A DNA stretch of 51,678 nucleotides from positions 1 to 51,678 of the forward strand of contig JAJFHN010000032.1 in assembly GCA_021775595.1 (NCBI GenBank), in the 5' to 3' direction. The notes under the pieces were generated by a model. That model saw nothing but the letters and a program-made list of their open reading frames with translations. It searched no databases and had not been told where the DNA came from. The DNA comes from Hyphomicrobiales bacterium (GTDB taxonomy: Bacteria > Pseudomonadota > Alphaproteobacteria > Rhizobiales > Methyloligellaceae). Shown here piece by piece: positions 2,582-50,498 of the stretch; positions within the stretch are counted from its first letter, which is position 1, and the number at the start of each line of letters is the position of its first letter. The translations under genes were made by a program, and so were the position numbers.

Positions 2582-3928
2582 ATGTCGCGAAAGTTATTCG
2601 GCACCGACGGTATTCGCGGTCTAGCCAACGCAGAGCCAATGACGGCGGAAATGGCCCTCAAGGTCGGAATGGCCGCTGGGGAACTGTTCACCAATGGCGA
2701 CCATCGTCATCGGGTCGTGATTGGAAAAGACACGCGGCTGTCGGGCTACATGATCGAGTCTGCGCTGGTTTCCGGATTTACGTCCGTTGGTATGGACGTA
2801 TTTCAATTGGGACCGATGCCAACGCCCGCCGTTGCGATGCTGACGAGATCATTACGTGCCGATCTTGGCGTGATGATTTCTGCTTCGCACAATCCATACT
2901 GCGACAACGGCATCAAGCTGTTTGGTCCCGACGGTTACAAGCTCGACGATGACACTGAGATTGCGATCGAGGCAATCATGTCAAAAGACATGAAGTCGCT
3001 GCTCGCGCCATCGGATGGCATTGGCCGCGCCAAACGGATCGACAGCGCTCAAGAACGATATATTGAATTTGCCAAGCGAACCCTTCCGCGAAACATCCGC
3101 TTCAATGACCTTCGGGTTGTCGTCGATTGCGCCAATGGGGCAGCATACAAGGTCGCTCCGCTGGCCCTCTGGGAACTCGGCGCCGAGGTCATTTCCATGG
3201 GCGTCGATCCAAACGGCGTCAACATCAACCAAGATTGCGGCTCGACATCGCCCGAGGCGCTGTGTGCAAGAGTCCGCGAAGTGCGCGCCGATATCGGCAT
3301 AGCATTGGATGGTGACGCCGATCGCGTGCTTATTTGCGATGAAAACGGCAAATTGATCGATGGCGATCAGCTGATGGCTGTGGTCGCTGAATTCTGGTCG
3401 AGCAGAGGACGGTTGGCGGCAGGTGGTGTCGTGGCAACCGTGATGTCAAACCTGGGGCTCGAACACTATCTGGATACGCTGGGCCTCAATCTTATCAGAA
3501 CGCCTGTTGGCGACAGGTACGTCGTCGAGCACATGCGCAAGCATGGCTACAATGTCGGTGGCGAGCAATCAGGACACATCGTGCTCTCCGATTTCACCAC
3601 CACTGGAGATGGTCTTGTCACGGCATTGCAAATATTGGCTGTGGTCGCCTCCAGCAAAAAAAGAGTGAGCGAAGTCTGCAACCGATTTGTGCCGTTGCCA
3701 CAAATTTTGAAGAATGTTCGCTTCAAACACGGCAAACCATTGGAAGACAGCGCCGTTCGCAAGGTGATCGATGACGTCACGGCGCGTCTTGGGAAAACCG
3801 GCCGGCTGGTGATCCGCCCTTCAGGAACCGAACCCGTCATCCGGGTGATGGCCGAAGGCGAGGACGAAAAGCTCGTCGGGACGGCCGTTTCGGAAATTGT
3901 CGACGCGCTGAAGCAAGCCGCAGCCTAG
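2582..3928 (+). CDS. glmM: Phosphoglucosamine mutase
   Basis: GlmM interconverts glucosamine-6-phosphate and glucosamine-1-phosphate on the way to UDP-GlcNAc, the precursor of peptidoglycan and lipid A. The 448-residue length is standard. The N-terminus reads [10 protein letters not shown]. The phosphoserine loop MISASHNP places the catalytic serine at residue 102, the same position as in E. coli. The metal-binding loop DGDADR, the sugar-binding GGEQSGH and the C-terminal phosphate-binding RPSGTEP are all present. An ATG with an upstream GGGGAATTGA ribosome site supports the start. The ftsH-folP-glmM neighbourhood is common in alphaproteobacteria. Confidence 0.97.
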
Positions 3929-25351: not shown

Positions 25352-26101
25352 CTAGAAGGGATTCCACGTTGGTTTTCGCGTATATTTCAAATAGCCGACA
25401 TTTGCGCCCAATCGAAGACCCACGCCGGATCGAATTGGGGCCAGCGTCAGATGGTCGCGCGTTTGAAATGTCACGCCGACGCCACCGATAAAGTACGCCG
25501 AGCCGTCGACGCCACCGAATGTCTGATAAATCTCGTTCGGATCGCGTAAATTGTAGACCAGGATCATTGTCTTGGAGCCCTCGGCGCCGAAATCGTAGCC
25601 GATCGATGGACCCTGCCAATAGACCTTGTGCCGGCCGGCGTCCTTCGTATACAGCGTGCCTTCGCCATAGCGCAGACCAGCCACAAAGGCGCCGCCAGCT
25701 TCTTCTCCCAAAATGTAGCCATTTGGTCTGCCCGCACGAGAGAAAGTGTGTTCGATAACCTTGGCGAGGCCTTTTGAAACGCTGCCGAAGAAGCGATGGC
25801 CGGTGCTCGTGATTTCATCGACAGAAAATGTATCGCCGTCTTGTTCGTTGGGCGGCGGCCTTAAGGGTTGAGGCTGCTGAGCATCGTAATCGGGCTGTCG
25901 AGCATCGTTCTGCGCAACTTGCTGCGGCAGTCTGGAGCGATGATTTGGAATTGGTTGAGTGGCAACCGGCGCTGGAATTTCCGCGACGCTGCCCGAGGAG
26001 GTTACCTGCTCGGCCAATGCGGGGGCAAAAAAACCGGCAAAAACTGCAACAAGCGAACAAAGGGATATTCGCAACAATCCCTCGATTAGGGTTCGTGCCA
26101 T
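25352..26101 (-). CDS. eipA: Periplasmic DUF1134 protein, EipA-like
   Basis: This 249-residue protein has a signal peptide (cut after ALA near residue 30) and a proline/glutamine-rich linker. A DUF1134 domain starts near residue 90: DTFSVDEITSTGHRFFGSVSKGLAKVIEHTF, GEEAGGAFVAGLRYGEGTLYTK, then GPSIGYDFGAEGSKTMILVYNL. It has been described in Brucella as EipA, a periplasmic protein needed for envelope stress resistance and reported as a CtrA target. The RBS is GAGAGG, 9 nt before ATG. No full CtrA box is seen in 26102-26313; there is a GANTC site near 26183 and one TTAA at 26264, so direct CtrA control is not established here. Confidence 0.85.
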   Translation of the reverse strand: MARTLIEGLLRISLCSLVAVFAGFFAPALAEQVTSSGSVAEIPAPVATQPIPNHRSRLPQQVAQNDARQPDYDAQQPQPLRPPPNEQDGDTFSVDEITSTGHRFFGSVSKGLAKVIEHTFSRAGRPNGYILGEEAGGAFVAGLRYGEGTLYTKDAGRHKVYWQGPSIGYDFGAEGSKTMILVYNLRDPNEIYQTFGGVDGSAYFIGGVGVTFQTRDHLTLAPIRSGVGLRLGANVGYLKYTRKPTWNPF

Positions 26102-40546: not shown

Positions 40547-41917
40547 TTAGGAAGCAATTGCCGATGCGTTGCCCGGGACCGGAACATCGAGCCCGTCTTG
40601 GGCGTATTGCTTCAGCTTGTTGCGCAGCGTGCGGATCGAAATTCCGAGAATGGTGGCCGCTCTGGTTCTGTTTCCGAGACAATGGCCCAGCGTCTCCAAT
40701 ATGAGATCGCGCTCTACCTCGGCAACAGTGCTGCCGACTAGATTGCGCGAGATGGATTCAGCCGCCAGTGCTGCCATCTCTGCAGGCCCGCCACGTGCTG
40801 CGCCAATTTCCACAACAGAGCCATCTGGTGTGCGGATGGCTTGGGCGTCGATTTGGTTGCCGCTAGCCAGCAACACCGCCCTATGGATTGTGTTTTCCAA
40901 TTCGCGAACATTTCCGCGCCATGGATTGGCAAGCAATTGGCGCCTGGCATCCTCAGTGAGTTGACGCTCGGGCATACCATTGGCGGTGGCGTATTTGCGC
41001 GCAAAATGATCGGCCAATTCCAAGATATCCAACGGCCGATCGCGCAGCGCCGGGAGCTTCAAATTGACGACGTTTAGGCGATACAGCAGGTCTTCTCGAA
41101 AGCTTCCCTCGTGAACAGCCAATGCCAAATCTCGATTCGACGTGGCGACAATGCGGATATCCACGGCAACAGGCTTCGTCCCGCCGACGCGGTCGATGAC
41201 CCGCTCTTGGATCGCGCGCAACAGCTTCGCCTGAAGCCGAACGTCCATTTCGCTGATTTCATCAAGCAGTAGCGTTCCGCCGTTCGCTTCTTCGAATTTT
41301 CCAATGCGCCGCGCAACGGCGCCGGTGAAGGCGCCCTTCTCATGTCCGAACAGTTCCGATTCCAGCAAATTTTCAGGAATGGCGGCGCAATTGACCGATA
41401 TGAAAGCATCGCCAGAGCGGGTTGATTTCAGGTGAATGTGCCGGGCCATGACTTCTTTGCCCGTCCCCGATTCGCCGGTGATTAGAATACTGGCGTCAGA
41501 CCGGGCAACTTGCTCGGCAAGCTTAAGGACATCGGTCATTTTTTCATCGCGATGAATGAGCTCATGAGACTCGGCTGCCACGGCCTCCAGCACAGCCGCG
41601 ATGAGTTCTGGCTCAGGCGGAAACGGAATATATTCCTTCGCGCCGGCTTGGATCGCCGCAACAGCTGCATCGGCGTCGTGTTCGATGCCGCAAGCGACAA
41701 TTGGAATATGGATGTGCTCGATCTCGAGTTGCTCGATCAGACCAGCAATATCGATGCGAACGTCGACCATCAGCAAATCCGCACCATTCCCCGCCCGCAG
41801 ATCTCTCAGACCACTGTCAATGGTTGGCGCATGCGTGACCTTTGCACCGCGATCCATCGCAATTTTTGTCGCGGTGGTTAGATCGCCGCTCAGGTTGCCA
41901 ATAATCATCAATCTCAT
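40547..41917 (-). CDS. flbD: Sigma-54-dependent flagellar regulator FlbD
   Basis: FlbD is an NtrC-family activator. The N-terminal receiver-like domain is degenerate but has VDVRID near residue 51. The AAA+ domain has Walker A GESGTGKE, the sigma-54 contact loop GAFTGA and Walker B GGTLLLDEIS. The C-terminal Fis helix-turn-helix is TRAATILGISIRTLRNKLKQ. In Caulobacter FlbD activates class III sigma-54 flagellar promoters and represses fliF. The same gene order (fliF, fliG, flbE, fliN, flbD) is found here, and matching cis-elements occur at fliF and fliK. Confidence 0.95.
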   Translation of the reverse strand: MRLMIIGNLSGDLTTATKIAMDRGAKVTHAPTIDSGLRDLRAGNGADLLMVDVRIDIAGLIEQLEIEHIHIPIVACGIEHDADAAVAAIQAGAKEYIPFPPEPELIAAVLEAVAAESHELIHRDEKMTDVLKLAEQVARSDASILITGESGTGKEVMARHIHLKSTRSGDAFISVNCAAIPENLLESELFGHEKGAFTGAVARRIGKFEEANGGTLLLDEISEMDVRLQAKLLRAIQERVIDRVGGTKPVAVDIRIVATSNRDLALAVHEGSFREDLLYRLNVVNLKLPALRDRPLDILELADHFARKYATANGMPERQLTEDARRQLLANPWRGNVRELENTIHRAVLLASGNQIDAQAIRTPDGSVVEIGAARGGPAEMAALAAESISRNLVGSTVAEVERDLILETLGHCLGNRTRAATILGISIRTLRNKLKQYAQDGLDVPVPGNASAIAS

Positions 41918-44255: not shown

Positions 44256-45917
44256 TTAAGCGGTGCTCTGAATCCATTCCCGAACGATGGTCATCGCCTC
44301 TTCGGGATTATTCTGGACAACTTCGCCGACTTCACGCACGGCGGTTGCATGTACCTCGCCGGTGATGCGCGCTTTTTGCAGCAGCTCAGACGCGACGCTC
44401 TTGGGCTTCGGTCCCTCGATCATCGCCGCTGCCTGATCGCCGGAAATCGGCGTACCGTCCGGTCCGGTCAGAAGCGTTGGATCTTGGCCGGCTCCGTGGG
44501 TCAGCGCAGGTTGAACCGCGCTCTCGTCAGGTGTGATTATCCGCCGAACGAGAGGGCGTACGATAATCAACAGCACCAAAAGCGATACGATAAAGAGCAC
44601 GACCAACTCTGCGATGTGGAAATAGTCCGCCTTGCTGAAATCAAGCAGGCCTTCCTCTGGACCCACAGCATTGCTGGCCAGACTGTTATCGGCGAATTGC
44701 AGATTCGACACATGGACCTGATCGCCGCGGGTTTGATCGAAGCCGACCGCTGATTTGACCAACGCCGAAATCTTGTCGAGCTGTTCTTGGCTGCGCGGGC
44801 CATAGACCAAGGCTCCGGTCGCGTCCTTGGTGTAGACACCATCGACCAACACGGCCACCGACAGGCGCTTGATGCCTCCCGCTTCAATGATTTCGGTTTT
44901 CGTGGTCTTGGAGATCTCGTAGTTGACGATTTCCTCGACCTTTTCGGCATTGTCCGATTCAGTGCCATTCGCCGCATCCCCGGCATTTGCCGACGGCAGT
45001 TCATTGCCCACACTCACCGTATTGCTGGAATTGGGTGATGTGGACGTCGAGCTTTCTTCGCGTGTCTGCGTCGAGCGAACGACTTGGCTTTCTGGATCGT
45101 AGAGATCGGATGTCTGCGTAATGCGGTTGTGATCGAGCTCCGCGCTGACGCGCACATGAGTGCGGTCGTTGCCAACCACGCTGACCACGATTTCCTCAAT
45201 TTCCCGCTGCAGACGCTTTTCATATGCCTGACTGCGCTCATCAAGTGAGGACGCAGTGTTGCTTTGTTCGTCGTCTTGGCCACTCGCCAGAAGCTTTCCA
45301 GATTCGTCGACGATCGACACGCGTTGTGGTTTGAGTTCGGGAACGGCAGAAGCGACCAGATGCTGAATCGCTCGGATTTGCCCCGAATCTAAGCCGCCGC
45401 GTATGTTGAGGACGATTGACGCAGAGGGTTTCGCTGAAGTCGCGCCGAACAAGCGGCGTTCCGCCAGAACAAGATGCACGCGCGCCGTCTTTACACGGGC
45501 AATGGTGCGAATGGATCGCGCGAGCTCGCCTTCGATGGCGCGAAGTCGATTGATGTTTTGAACGAAACTGGTTGCACCAAGTGTGTCGCCTTTGTCGAAA
45601 ATCTCATATCCGACGGCGCCTCCTGCAGGTAACCCTTCTTCGGCCAACAGCATCCGCAAACGCAATACCCGATCTTTCGGCGCCATAATGATCGCCCCGT
45701 TTTGGCGAACTTCATGGGGTTCGTTCATGCCTTCGAGTTTGCTAACGACATCAATGGAGTCTTCGAACGCCAGCTCCGTGAAGAGGACGCCCATTTGCGG
45801 CTGCGAAAACCGCATCGTTATGAGGACGAAGAATCCGATGAGTGCGACGGCAACCGCACCAATTGCCGCGAGTCTTGCTGGACCCAGGGCTTTCACGAAC
45901 TCTGTGACGCTATTCAC
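44256..45917 (-). CDS. fliF: Flagellar MS-ring protein FliF
   Basis: FliF forms the inner-membrane MS ring. There is one transmembrane helix near each end, a lipoprotein-like ring-building motif (AVGYEIFDKGDTLGATSFVQ), an RBM3 region, and a C-terminal cytoplasmic helix (EEAMTIVREWIQ) that binds FliG. I choose the GTG at 45917 because AAGGAAG lies 9 nt before it and the protein then begins at the usual point (NSVTEFVKALG), giving 553 residues. An ATG at 45965 adds 16 residues and has no RBS. Confidence 0.94.
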   Translation of the reverse strand: MNSVTEFVKALGPARLAAIGAVAVALIGFFVLITMRFSQPQMGVLFTELAFEDSIDVVSKLEGMNEPHEVRQNGAIIMAPKDRVLRLRMLLAEEGLPAGGAVGYEIFDKGDTLGATSFVQNINRLRAIEGELARSIRTIARVKTARVHLVLAERRLFGATSAKPSASIVLNIRGGLDSGQIRAIQHLVASAVPELKPQRVSIVDESGKLLASGQDDEQSNTASSLDERSQAYEKRLQREIEEIVVSVVGNDRTHVRVSAELDHNRITQTSDLYDPESQVVRSTQTREESSTSTSPNSSNTVSVGNELPSANAGDAANGTESDNAEKVEEIVNYEISKTTKTEIIEAGGIKRLSVAVLVDGVYTKDATGALVYGPRSQEQLDKISALVKSAVGFDQTRGDQVHVSNLQFADNSLASNAVGPEEGLLDFSKADYFHIAELVVLFIVSLLVLLIIVRPLVRRIITPDESAVQPALTHGAGQDPTLLTGPDGTPISGDQAAAMIEGPKPKSVASELLQKARITGEVHATAVREVGEVVQNNPEEAMTIVREWIQSTA

Positions 45918-46000
45918 CTGCGGCGCTTCCTTCTTGTTTCGATTGCCCGTGCCAGGGCAGGGCATTCATTTATGATTCGTTTACCGTGATGATCCGGATA

Positions 46001-46014
46001 GGCAAAAATTACCC
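46001..46014. promoter_or_regulatory. Palindromic element (FlbD ftr-like) at the fliF promoter
   Basis: GGCAAAAATTACCC differs from the fliK-side copy GGCAAAAATTGCCC at one base. It lies between the CtrA-type box (46024-46038) and the fliF start, where the -10 region would be. In Caulobacter FlbD represses fliF through a site at the promoter. I name it ftr-like from memory of that element; comparison to the published consensus would settle it. Confidence 0.6.
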
Positions 46015-46023
46015 AGTAAGTCC

Positions 46024-46038
46024 TAAACAGAAGCTTAA
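46024..46038 (-). promoter_or_regulatory. CtrA-type box upstream of fliF
   Basis: On the minus strand TTAA, seven bases, TTTA: seven of eight matches to the CtrA consensus. It lies 107 bp from the fliF GTG and 9 bp upstream of the ftr-like palindrome, matching the activator-then-repressor layout known for fliF in Caulobacter. Confidence 0.65.
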
Positions 46039-46619: not shown

Positions 46620-47288
46620 TTAGGGTATCGACGGCGAGTTGATCGATATCACTTCGTCCAACTTGATTGTGCGGGTGCCCGATGTCAGCAACACCTCGCT
46701 GCTGCTCATGTCGACACCATCGACGATACCCGTAAACGATGTCGACGCATCGAGCAGATTACCGGAGGCATCGGTGGCGCGTATCGAAAGCTGATAGGCG
46801 CCAGCAGGTGCGGTTCCACCGCCCGTGGTTTGACCATTCCAGACAAATGAGCCGGGTCCTGCGGGAATCGATTGGCTCTGAGAAAACACAATATTCCCGT
46901 CGGCATCCGCAACCGTGAACAGCGCATCGTCGCTGCTCGCTGGCACGCTATATTGCCAGCTGGCCACCCCGTTTTGCAGATCCGACACCGAACCCGAGCC
47001 AGTGATCTCCTTGCCAATGTAGCCGACGACATTTGTAATCGTCGACGCGGCGGACAAATTGATCAGTGTTTCGAGATGGTCGTTCATTTTGACCGTCTGC
47101 TCGACCTCGGTGAATTGAACCAGCTGTTGGGTGAATTGATTGGTGTCCACGGGATCAAGCGGATCTTGATTTTGCAGCTGCGTGATCAACAACTGCAGGA
47201 ACGAATCCAGACTTCCTCCCAACGACGCCGCGTCGGTTGAGGCTTGACTGACCTGATTGATGGCCGAGAAGGGATTGACTTCAACCAT
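46620..47288 (-). CDS. flgD: Flagellar hook-capping protein FlgD
   Basis: FlgD is the scaffold for hook polymerisation. The N-terminal export and cap segment has SLDSFLQLLITQLQNQDPLDP with the family motif. A Fn-III/tudor-like C-terminal part (SFVWNGQTTGGGTAPAGAYQLSI) is followed by the closing TGIVDGVDM segment. The 222 residues are normal. It is 14 bp after fliK. Confidence 0.95.
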   Translation of the reverse strand: MVEVNPFSAINQVSQASTDAASLGGSLDSFLQLLITQLQNQDPLDPVDTNQFTQQLVQFTEVEQTVKMNDHLETLINLSAASTITNVVGYIGKEITGSGSVSDLQNGVASWQYSVPASSDDALFTVADADGNIVFSQSQSIPAGPGSFVWNGQTTGGGTAPAGAYQLSIRATDASGNLLDASTSFTGIVDGVDMSSSEVLLTSGTRTIKLDEVISINSPSIP

Positions 47289-47302: not shown

Positions 47303-48949
47303 CTAAATTCGGATGTCAACGCGGTCGGATGCGATGAGATTCTGATATTGCTTCTGCAGACCGCCGTTCAGCGCGCCATCGTCGTCTCGTGCAGCGGCGT
47401 TCTTGTCTTGGCCGGCCGCCTTGTCAAAGTTGTTGCCGTCACCCTGCCGATTCCCGCTGCCGCTGGATTGCTGGTCTTTCAATGAGAACGTCAGTCCATC
47501 TTTCGATGTTTCCAGACCGGCGTTTTGAAGCGCACGCTCGAGGCTTCGCGCGTCGCGCTGCAGCAGGTCGAGCGTTTCAGCCCGCTCAACCACCAGATGC
47601 GCGGTTGCGCGACCGTCGCGCGCCACATCGAGCCGGATTTCGAGACGGCCAAGCTCAGGGGGGTCGAGTCTGATGTCAAAGCGTTTTGCGCCAGCTTGTG
47701 CTTGCTGAGCGATATTAACAGCCAACGAATTTAAGGGCAGCTGCGGCGCCTGAGGTTGGGAAGCAACCGGCGATGCCAAACTTCTGAAATTGATATTTTG
47801 CGAAGCGATGTCTCGCCCCAGGGCCCCGAGCGATTCGATATCGCCGGCAGCTGGGCCAATTAGATTCGCTTCGCGTGTGCCTGGATTGACGGCATTTTGC
47901 CCAAATGCGTGTGCGATGGATTTGGCATTTGCCAATGAGTATTGCGAACTGGTGCCTTGTTCAGCCGTGGTTGCGCCAGTGAGACTTGCTTGATCGGCAT
48001 TGGAGCCAGCAGCGGCTCGGTCGGTATGCAGCGGCTGCCCTGCATGGTTTGGTCGGATCGTTTGAGCAATTGCCGGATCAGCCGATCCGCGAGTTTCACC
48101 AAGCGCTGGAGCGGCGCCTGCGATTCGGGATTTTGCCTCGCGGGCAACATCCAAACCCAGGCGGCCGGCATCACCTGCGCGTTCCTGCGCTCGATCCAAT
48201 CCAGTCAACTTGTCGGCGCCTTGCTCGGCCGTGGGAACTGGATGTTTCGCAACTTTAGTGTTTGCGATTGTCGCATCCAATGGCGTGGCGCTGGCGGTTG
48301 CTGTCCCCGCTTGAGCCGTCGGCTCAGCGACACCGTTGATCACCGGCGTCCCGTTGGCGGACACTTGTTGTTGAGTGGCGCCCGGCAACGCGGTCGTTGC
48401 GGTCTGGCCAGCGATAAGCGGCCGCTGTTGGCCAGCCAATTTGGATGCTTCGTCGTGACCGGGCTGGAGACTCTTAGTGAGCTCGTCCGCTTGGCCGTCG
48501 ATCAGCGGTTGTCCGGGCGTCTGGCCGGAGTGCTCGGCGAATTTGCCCCCAAGTCCATCGGTTGAAAGAGACAATGTGGGCGCGGTGGACGGATCTGCTC
48601 CAACGGCACTTGATTGATTTGCCGATGCCGTCGAGATTTGCTGAGTCGGCGTCCCTGTGGTTTCTCCCGGTGGGACGATAGTGCCAACGGGGGTGCTGCC
48701 GGCACTATTCGGTTCTCCACCGGGCAGACCCGCTGTCTGAGGCGAATTCGCTGCGCCGGCACGCTGATCGAGGTTGCTGGGCGTGTTTTCAGATTGTGAT
48801 GGGTTTGCAGTTCCAGCGTTCTGACCGATGGCGGCGAGCAACGAAGCGAACAATCCATTCGGCTGCTGGGGCGAACCAACTGGATTGGCGCCAGCACTTT
48901 GAGTGCTAGTCTCGCTGAGACTCAGGAAAATATTCGAAACCGATGTCAT
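47303..48949 (-). CDS. fliK: Flagellar hook-length control protein FliK
   Basis: FliK is the secreted ruler that measures hook length and switches export specificity. The first 380 residues are low-complexity, rich in Ala, Gly, Gln, Ser and Thr, as is usual for the ruler part. The C-terminal domain (about residues 415-500) has RFDIRLDPPELGRLEIRLDV, the FliK switch signature. The gene encodes 548 residues. I use ATG 48949; GTG 48952 adds one residue. It heads the fliK-flgD unit and has a sigma-54 promoter just upstream. Confidence 0.9.
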   Translation of the reverse strand: MTSVSNIFLSLSETSTQSAGANPVGSPQQPNGLFASLLAAIGQNAGTANPSQSENTPSNLDQRAGAANSPQTAGLPGGEPNSAGSTPVGTIVPPGETTGTPTQQISTASANQSSAVGADPSTAPTLSLSTDGLGGKFAEHSGQTPGQPLIDGQADELTKSLQPGHDEASKLAGQQRPLIAGQTATTALPGATQQQVSANGTPVINGVAEPTAQAGTATASATPLDATIANTKVAKHPVPTAEQGADKLTGLDRAQERAGDAGRLGLDVAREAKSRIAGAAPALGETRGSADPAIAQTIRPNHAGQPLHTDRAAAGSNADQASLTGATTAEQGTSSQYSLANAKSIAHAFGQNAVNPGTREANLIGPAAGDIESLGALGRDIASQNINFRSLASPVASQPQAPQLPLNSLAVNIAQQAQAGAKRFDIRLDPPELGRLEIRLDVARDGRATAHLVVERAETLDLLQRDARSLERALQNAGLETSKDGLTFSLKDQQSSGSGNRQGDGNNFDKAAGQDKNAAARDDDGALNGGLQKQYQNLIASDRVDIRI

Positions 48950-48987
48950 CACTCGACGCCTGATACATAAACTCGCGTGAATAGAGC

Positions 48988-49003
48988 AGCAAGAGTTGCG
49001 CCA
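48988..49003 (-). promoter_or_regulatory. Sigma-54 promoter of fliK-flgD
   Basis: On the minus strand TGGCGC-N5-TTGCT has GG and GC separated by exactly 10 bases, matching TGGCAC-N5-TTGCW at all but one defined position. Transcription would start near 48978, giving a leader of about 29 nt. A sigma-54 activator, FlbD, is encoded in the window. Confidence 0.8.
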
Positions 49004-49070
49004 ACGGCGAGACTGATAAAAAACTCAATTAGAACAAATAATTAGAGGATCGTCGACGTTAGATCATCGA

Positions 49071-49124
49071 GCAAAAATTGCGCTCTGCTCGGCAAAAATT
49101 GCCCGGACTCGGTCAAAATTTCCC
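49071..49124. repeat. Three palindromes spaced 20-21 bp upstream of fliK (ftr-like enhancer)
   Basis: The units are GCAAAAATTGC (49071-49081), GGCAAAAATTGCCC (49091-49104) and GGTCAAAATTTCCC (49111-49124). Unit starts are 20-21 bp apart, two helical turns, so three dimers would line up on one DNA face. They lie 70-120 bp upstream of the sigma-54 promoter, a normal enhancer distance. A near-identical single copy lies at the fliF promoter. This suggests FlbD binding; binding is inferred. Confidence 0.7.
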
Positions 49125-49298
49125 GCCACCGCAAGGAGTTGGACGACTTGCGAATGATTTGCCGCAGCAATATGGTGAGCACAGTCTGTTCTAGGGGTAT
49201 GCCGCGCGAGGCAGTTTGGCCGCGCGCCGATTTGGCTGCTGTCAAATTGCGCAGTTGAGAGTGACAGAAGCCGTTCTTGGGGCCACCGAATTTCACGT
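49125..49298. other. mnmA upstream region
   Basis: No gene is seen between the palindromes and the mnmA start. The region must hold the mnmA promoter; I see no well-spaced -35/-10 pair. Confidence 0.4.
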
Positions 49299-50498
49299 AT
49301 GCCTGATTTCGATCCACTAGATTTACAGGGTTTGCAGCCAGGCGCGCGTGTCGTCGTGGCGATGTCTGGCGGCGTCGATTCTTCCGTCGCCGCAGCCATG
49401 CTCGAACAGGCTGGCTTCGATGTGATCGGCATCACCTTGCAACTTTATGATCATGGCGAGGCGGTGGGCCGCAGCGGCAGCTGTTGTGCGGGCCGCGACA
49501 TTGCGGACGCCCGGCACGTTGCCGAAGCCTTGGGGATTCCCCATTACGTGCTCGACTACGAGAAGCGGTTTCAACATCGCGTAATAGACGAATTCGCCAA
49601 CAGCTATTTGGCTGGGGAAACACCGGTTCCATGTGTCGCTTGCAACCAAAATATCAAATTCTTGGATTTGCTGGAGACCGCGAACGAGCTGGGTGGCAAG
49701 GCGCTGGTGACCGGGCATTATGTGCAAAGCCGCTGCGTGTCGAACAGCTGGCAGCTGCATCAGGCGGTGGATGCCGAGCGCGACCAAAGCTACTTTCTTT
49801 TTGCCACCCAGCAAGAGCAACTCAAGCAACTGCGGTTTCCGCTGGGCGGCCTGGCCAAATCGAAAACGCGCGAATTGGCAAAGAGCTACAATTTGCCGGT
49901 TGCCGAAAAATCCGATAGCCAAGACATCTGCTTCGTGCCGACCGGGCGGTATTCGAGCGTTATCGAAAGACTGCGGCCCGACGCCGTTGAGCCGGGCGAC
50001 ATCGTTCATGTCGATGGCCGCGTACTGGGCAGCCACCCGGGCATCGTTCATTACACGGTTGGTCAGCGTCGAGGTCTGGGCGTAGCCCAGGGCGAACCGA
50101 TGTACGTCGTGCGATTGGATGTCGAGCGACGTCAGGTTGTTGTGGGACCCCGCGAATGTCTGATGATTGATCAGATTTACCTGCGCGACACGAATTGGTT
50201 GGGAGACGGCAGGCTCGACGAAATCGCAGAAGATGGAATTGACGTGCACGTCAAAATCAGGTCGACTCAGCAACCTCAGGCGGCAAGACTATCAATTGAT
50301 GACGGTAAGCCTGTTGTGGAATTGGCTCGTCCTGAGTATGGAGTTTCTCCCGGACAAGCTTGCGTCTTTTATAATGGCGCGCGAGTTTTGGGAGGCGGTT
50401 GGATCGCATCGACCAACACGATAGACAATTCGGCGGCAAACGTTGGCTGTCGCCATAAAAATGGGAGTGCGCAGAGTGCGCACGTGATTGCGACCTGA
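49299..50498 (+). CDS. mnmA: tRNA-specific 2-thiouridylase MnmA
   Basis: MnmA adds sulfur to U34 of tRNA-Glu, -Lys and -Gln. The PP-loop [13 protein letters not shown] is near residue 24. The two catalytic cysteines are in [13 protein letters not shown] and SQDICFVP, and the central domain has [13 protein letters not shown]. The 399 residues are normal, and the start is ATG 49299. One of its substrates, tRNA-Glu, is also encoded in the window. Confidence 0.96.

Follow-up and report, generated by a model that had tools for sequence, protein, structure and literature searches.

Three ftr-like dyads with helical spacing upstream of a fliK-flgD sigma-54 promoter: a putative FlbD enhancer array

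Three ftr-like dyads precede a sigma-54 promoter of the flagellar genes fliK-flgD in the DNA analyzed here (the window, 51,678 nucleotides, contig C29 of a 2.9-Mb Hyphomicrobiales genome in 103 contigs). It is very probable that these dyads form the FlbD (ftr) enhancer of that promoter, within a two-way switch in which CtrA would turn genes on and FlbD would both repress and activate. The fliK array is a well-preserved member of a known flagellar switch, and related bacteria seem to keep their FlbD sites on one helix face relative to the promoter, as judged from the positions of predicted sites.

The array and its gene context

The dyads, to which no strand is assigned, were located by direct reading and by a pattern search of the window. 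The proximal dyad AGCAAAAATTGCG (positions 49070–49082; 2 mismatches, 11.0 bits), the central dyad GGCAAAAATTGCC (49091–49103; exact, 20.7 bits) and the distal, degenerate dyad GGTCAAAATTTCC (49111–49123; 3 mismatches, 8.6 bits) lie 79, 100 and 120 bp upstream of the promoter, as counted to the T of TGGCGCAACTCTTGCT on the fliK strand. Bit scores were derived from a matrix of the sites of 66 relatives, with the window left out. The promoter TGGCGCAACTCTTGCT (48988–49003, minus strand) matches TGGCRYR-N4-TTGCW and was the top candidate of the region. The distal dyad is rated weak because it scores 8.6 bits, and it has an alternative register at 49112–49124, likewise with 3 mismatches. An earlier note on this DNA had described three dyad copies with starts 20–21 bp apart, 70–120 bp upstream of a sigma-54 site; the starts at 49070, 49091 and 49111, spaced by 21 and 20 bp, and the distances given above bear out both parts of that description.

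The triple array exceeds chance. When the 346-bp intergenic region was shuffled 20,000 times with its dinucleotides kept, a dyad triple never appeared, and a dyad pair at 19–22 bp appeared 11 times. Elsewhere in the window, no further dyad pair at 14–29 bp was detected at the same mismatch level. The three dyads are most likely docking sites of the flagellar regulator FlbD.

The minus strand of the window encodes fliK, flgD, fliF, fliG, a FliH-like gene, fliN, flbD and flhA. The first gene after the promoter is fliK (hook-length control; 47303–48952, minus strand; Pfam Flg_hook, 64.7 bits), followed 14 bp later by flgD (hook cap; 46620–47288, minus strand; Pfam FlgD, 72.4 bits), and the two would share one transcript. 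The predicted dyad binder is the sigma-54 activator encoded by flbD (40547–41917, minus strand; NF050807, 791.4 bits with a cut-off of 750). This FlbD has a GAFTGA motif, and its receiver domain scores under the Pfam cut-off (23.2 vs. 30.2 bits). FliX (PF10768, 120.3 bits, on contig C44) and RpoN are encoded elsewhere in the genome. The earlier reading of the region as a sigma-54 fliK-flgD promoter with a helically spaced array of the FlbD/ftr type is supported, with FlbD, FliX and RpoN all encoded in the genome.

On the other side of the promoter, mnmA is the divergent neighbor of fliK, as seen around 48952–49299. MnmA was found in the stretch upstream of fliK in 71 of 80 relatives, a deeply rooted synteny between a tRNA housekeeping gene and a flagellar operon.

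Dyads and promoter designs in the genome

With at most 1 mismatch, the dyad occurs 13 times in the genome (2 exact and 11 one-mismatch copies). Four copies lie at flagellar promoters (fliK, fliF, the flgB/fliP intergenic region and flgF), and the other nine lie inside stop-to-stop frames of at least 188 codons, with gene status checked for part of these frames. A random scatter, which the earlier note had named as an outcome that would speak against its reading, was not seen for the high-scoring copies outside long frames. When 2 mismatches were allowed, the genome gave 171 matches vs. 66 for the reversed pattern; therefore, many of the looser matches are probably due to chance. The claim that the motif occurs once at fliF and nowhere else was correct for the window at up to 1 mismatch, where the fliF site (46001–46013) is the one dyad besides the fliK array, and fails at 2 mismatches, where dyads appear at 26036 and at 41858 (41858–41870, within the flbD coding frame). 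In this genome, the strict sigma-54 pattern by itself gave about as many matches as its control (11 vs. 10), and promoter calls therefore rest on sigma-54 sites and dyads jointly.

The dyad is common to late (fliK, flgI, flgF and flgE) and early (fliF, the flgB/fliP unit and fliX) promoters, which follow two designs. In the early design, an ftr dyad lies downstream of a CtrA-like box, with exactly 10 bp between them (fliF, flgB and the fliP unit). At fliF (44256–45965, minus strand; TIGR00206, 310 bits), an early gene predicted to be repressed through a single dyad, the ftr-like dyad GGCAAAAATTACC (46001–46013, no strand, 1 mismatch) has the CtrA-like box TTAAGCTTCTGTTTA 10 bp upstream (46024–46038, no strand, 1 mismatch to TTAA-N7-TTAA). 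At flgB, the box matches TTAA-N7-TTAA perfectly. The divergent fliP-containing unit has a box with 1 mismatch and an exact dyad, and its small fliO-like first gene gave no Pfam match. The fliX gene has a perfect CtrA-like box, and its dyad, which is common to flgI, lies on the opposite side, 5 bp off. The exact 10-bp gap between box and dyad was observed at window positions 46001–46038 and at positions 918–1037 of locus L266, and it may reflect a fixed repressor geometry of early promoters.

In the late design, a sigma-54 promoter has two or three upstream dyads. Besides fliK, dyads lie 97 and 118 bp (flgI), 76 and 90 bp (flgF) and 67 and 88 bp (flgE) upstream of the sigma-54 promoter; these genes were named by Pfam, with flgF preferred over flgG from gene order. 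The pairing of a CtrA-like box with one dyad at early genes, and of a sigma-54 promoter with several dyads at late genes, corresponds to the Caulobacter FlbD/ftr logic. The fliK spacer (49051–49058) and the flgI spacer (3437–3444 of locus L264) share the 8-mer GTCGACGT, ∼12 bp from the closest ftr dyad in both; this sharing is probably due to chance.

fliK promoters and helical phase in related bacteria

A FliK search matched 110 of 199 genomes of the order, including our own genome. Among the 109 relatives, the upstream regions of 80 were taken in and 29 were left out, 3 of these because the contig ended close to or at the match. By a joint criterion for both elements, 66 of the 80 regions have a sigma-54 promoter and, 60–125 bp upstream of it, a dyad. 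The remaining 14 are absent from the phase counts; in four of them, the distance between dyad and candidate promoter is 66, 137, 178 or 241 bp, with a poor phase fit at 137 and 178 bp. Six sampled genomes of another genus of the same family (G031, G074, G109, G140, G168 and G191) gave neither a fliK match (E 0.001) nor a flbD match (E 1e-100), which suggests that flagella were lost there.

The matrix from the 66 relatives, without the window, has the consensus GGCAR-N3-YTGCC. When sites of at least 8 bits were counted in 67 promoters, the window included, 18 promoters had one site, 39 had two, nine had three (among them the window) and one had four. Promoters had been selected for having one site, so the presence of a second is the fair measure: 49 of the 67 promoters carry a second site, vs. 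1.3 expected from shuffles of the sequence flanking the best site. At least three sites were found in 10 of 67 promoters and in 6 of 27 families, with the window in both counts; the relatives concerned belong to families f3, f7, f8 and f12, with one genome of f33. Array spacings in f3, f7 and f8 range from 14 to 33 bp, and the 20 and 21 bp of the window are more regular. Class-wide, 60 loci gave 59 distinct promoters, nine of them with at least three sites. The suggestion that a three-site array would be a special variant is not borne out, as two phased sites are the commonest arrangement; array size was rejected as a distinguishing feature because at least three sites recur in relatives. The FlbD/ftr system is already known, and its three-site form recurs. 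One class relative (locus L312, G249:C5:122250-122391) has four ftr-like sites of at least 8 bits upstream of one sigma-54-like site.

The FliK query found no relative among the named genomes, so an FlbD alignment was used instead. It comprised 80 named loci, of which the first 20 (L102–L121), nearly all titled alphaproteobacteria, were scanned. A sigma-54 promoter with a strong dyad 69–111 bp upstream was found in 8 of the 20, including Roseibium, Bradyrhizobium, Parvibaculum, Azospirillum and Pseudorhodoplanes records; the other 12, several of which are short contigs, had no such combination. In 9 of the 20, a strong dyad lies upstream of flbD at a distance of 3.8–4.1 kb, which by sequence position corresponds to the fliF site of the window.

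The spacer between dyads and promoter often carries IHF-like sites. With at most 1 mismatch they were found in the spacers of 31 of 66 relatives vs. 5.9 expected, and 16 of the 31 share one strand and a position 40–44 bp upstream. In the window, a degenerate, weak IHF-like site (49032–49044, plus strand, 2 mismatches) precedes the promoter by 41 bp, at the place and on the strand of the relatives' commonest site. In the other late promoters of the genome, the IHF-like site is exact at flgE and has one mismatch each at flgI and flgF. Promoters with more ftr sites had neither better nor worse IHF-like sites (Spearman –0.01, p 0.94, n = 67).

Counted back from the sigma-54 T, the starts of the relatives' sites cluster near 77, 88, 98, 109, 120 and 131 bp, and intermediate positions are rare. 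With each family weighted once, the best period is 10.5 bp (R 0.616), and none of 5000 control trials, in which each family's arrays were shifted randomly by –10 to +10 bp, reached the observed 10.5-bp signal. At thresholds of 8, 10, 12 and 14 bits and without the window, the best periods were 10.55, 10.6, 10.5 and 10.65 bp, with 0 of 5000 controls in each case. With one best site and one promoter per family (26 families), the median R was 0.69. The sites of the window are 0.7–1.7 bp off the mean phase, and those of the other three arrays of the genome at most 2.2 bp.

Class-wide pattern searches (385 genomes, any gene) matched 131 and 102 genomes, with ∼150 or more forward matches per search vs. 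20 and 9 for the reversed pattern, by eye count. The phase test was performed on the matches listed (150 and 149 rows, without the window's own row); removal of 7 rows from two families of the same order left 292 rows from 75 families outside the order; among these, a promoter with two sites can fill two rows, and chance matches are still counted. For the 10.5-bp period, these 292 listed rows gave an R of 0.287 when weighted by row and of 0.190 when weighted by family; of 10,000 shifted sets, 78 attained the family-weighted value. These listed rows had a phase of 3.67 vs. 3.82 in the fliK set, and their best period was 9.85 bp family-weighted (R 0.231) and 10.75 bp row-wise. The class-wide set is support for the phase, not proof.

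Could the array be an ordinary two-site FlbD enhancer, in which the proximal and central dyads work and the distal dyad is a decayed remnant? The 8.6 bits and 3 mismatches of the distal dyad point that way, as does the fact that two is the commonest number of sites (39 of 67 promoters); we regard this as a serious possibility, somewhat short of an even prospect, since the third site is correctly spaced, the shuffles never gave the triple, and positions 117–122 are frequently occupied in relatives. The common phase might also have been inherited with the fliK promoter from an ancestor, and not selected for helix face: all 80 relatives belong to one order, the phase statistics ignore the tree, and the MnmA neighborhood is retained in 71 of 80. 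We consider this unlikely, because different families use about six turns (77 to 131) with the phase kept, family-wise shifts never matched the phase signal, and class-wide matches at any gene have the same phase among the matches listed.

Alternatively, the dyads might belong to a different regulator or act on mnmA, the divergent gene, given that the array sits in the mnmA-fliK intergenic region and that MnmA is there in 71 of 80 relatives. This is highly improbable: the two GG-N10-GC matches that face mnmA are without the TTGC part of a sigma-54 site, and the identical dyad type recurs at flgI, flgF, flgE, fliF and flgB. Several observations count against the preferred reading of the three dyads as an FlbD enhancer within the two-way switch, namely the weak distal site, the 2 mismatches of the IHF-like site, the fliX dyad on the other side of its box, the 14 of 80 relatives outside the joint sigma-54 and dyad criterion (some with dyads beyond 60–125 bp), the poor discrimination of the sigma-54 pattern when used alone, and the modest class-wide family signal (R 0.19) with its best period of 9.85.

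The proposed switch and known systems

We infer the following mechanism for the FlbD enhancer and the switch around it. CtrA, whose role is deduced from its boxes, would turn on the early genes, namely the fliF operon including flbD, flgB, the fliP unit and fliX. Once the early basal body is complete, FliX would let FlbD act. FlbD would then repress fliF, flgB and the fliP unit by binding the one site that lies 10 bp past each CtrA box, and would activate fliK, flgI, flgF and flgE through multi-site arrays and DNA looping, probably aided by an IHF bend. The two-turn spacing would place FlbD dimers on one face of the helix, aligned with the promoter, so that looped FlbD could contact sigma-54 RNA polymerase and open the promoter. 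Three FlbD dimers would be enough to seed one AAA+ hexamer.

These data are compatible with a broader rule for the Alphaproteobacteria, on which we are evenly divided: (i) functional sites would start ∼67 + 10.5n bp ahead of the sigma-54 TGG; (ii) sites would move or multiply mainly by whole turns, with the face constrained and not the distance or the number; and (iii) three-site arrays would be three dimers, for one AAA+ hexamer, on the same face. Such a phasing rule is possibly undocumented so far; searches that were not aimed at it returned no mention of a 10.5-bp link of natural FlbD sites to the promoter, and older Caulobacter papers may state it. Looping is usually said to render enhancers distance-tolerant. 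The rule is a testable one for natural sigma-54 enhancers, in which helical face would constrain site position, and the natural data set, with dozens of families, makes enhancer distance tolerance measurable. The Caulobacter two-way switch, in which one protein and one motif would repress early genes and activate late genes, is also readable from the sequence of a genome available as contigs only.

In Caulobacter crescentus, FlbD activates class III genes, fliK among them, and one ftr site mediates its repression of class II fliF (PMC3096577; PMC3930126), and FlbD binding sites at promoters were published by Fumeaux et al., as cited in a passage of PMC12421884. The likeness to that system (class III sigma-54 promoters; ftr4 at fliF) extends to FlbD, FliX and RpoN, to dyads upstream of a sigma-54 fliK promoter, to a single fliF dyad beside a CtrA-like box, and to IHF-like loop sites, which here are present in many relatives. 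Set beside it, the array of the window consists of three dyads 20–21 bp apart.

At E. coli norVW, three NorR sites are essential and scaffold higher-order activator oligomers, as described in part of PMC2941729. The likeness lies in three enhancer sites upstream of a sigma-54 promoter; the activator and the signal are different. NorR needs all three sites; the fliK promoters of the relatives most often have two. The NorR site presumably differs in sequence from the dyads of the window. By analogy with this NorR scaffold, one hexamer could be seeded by three dimers of FlbD.

Vibrio qrr promoters with LuxO and synthetic sigma-54 enhancers are sensitive to the ∼10.5-bp helical repeat, as stated in a passage of PMC4740811. 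In that passage, the helical effect comes from loop sequences and from regulators bound in the loop. In contrast, here the activator sites themselves are phased, across many families.
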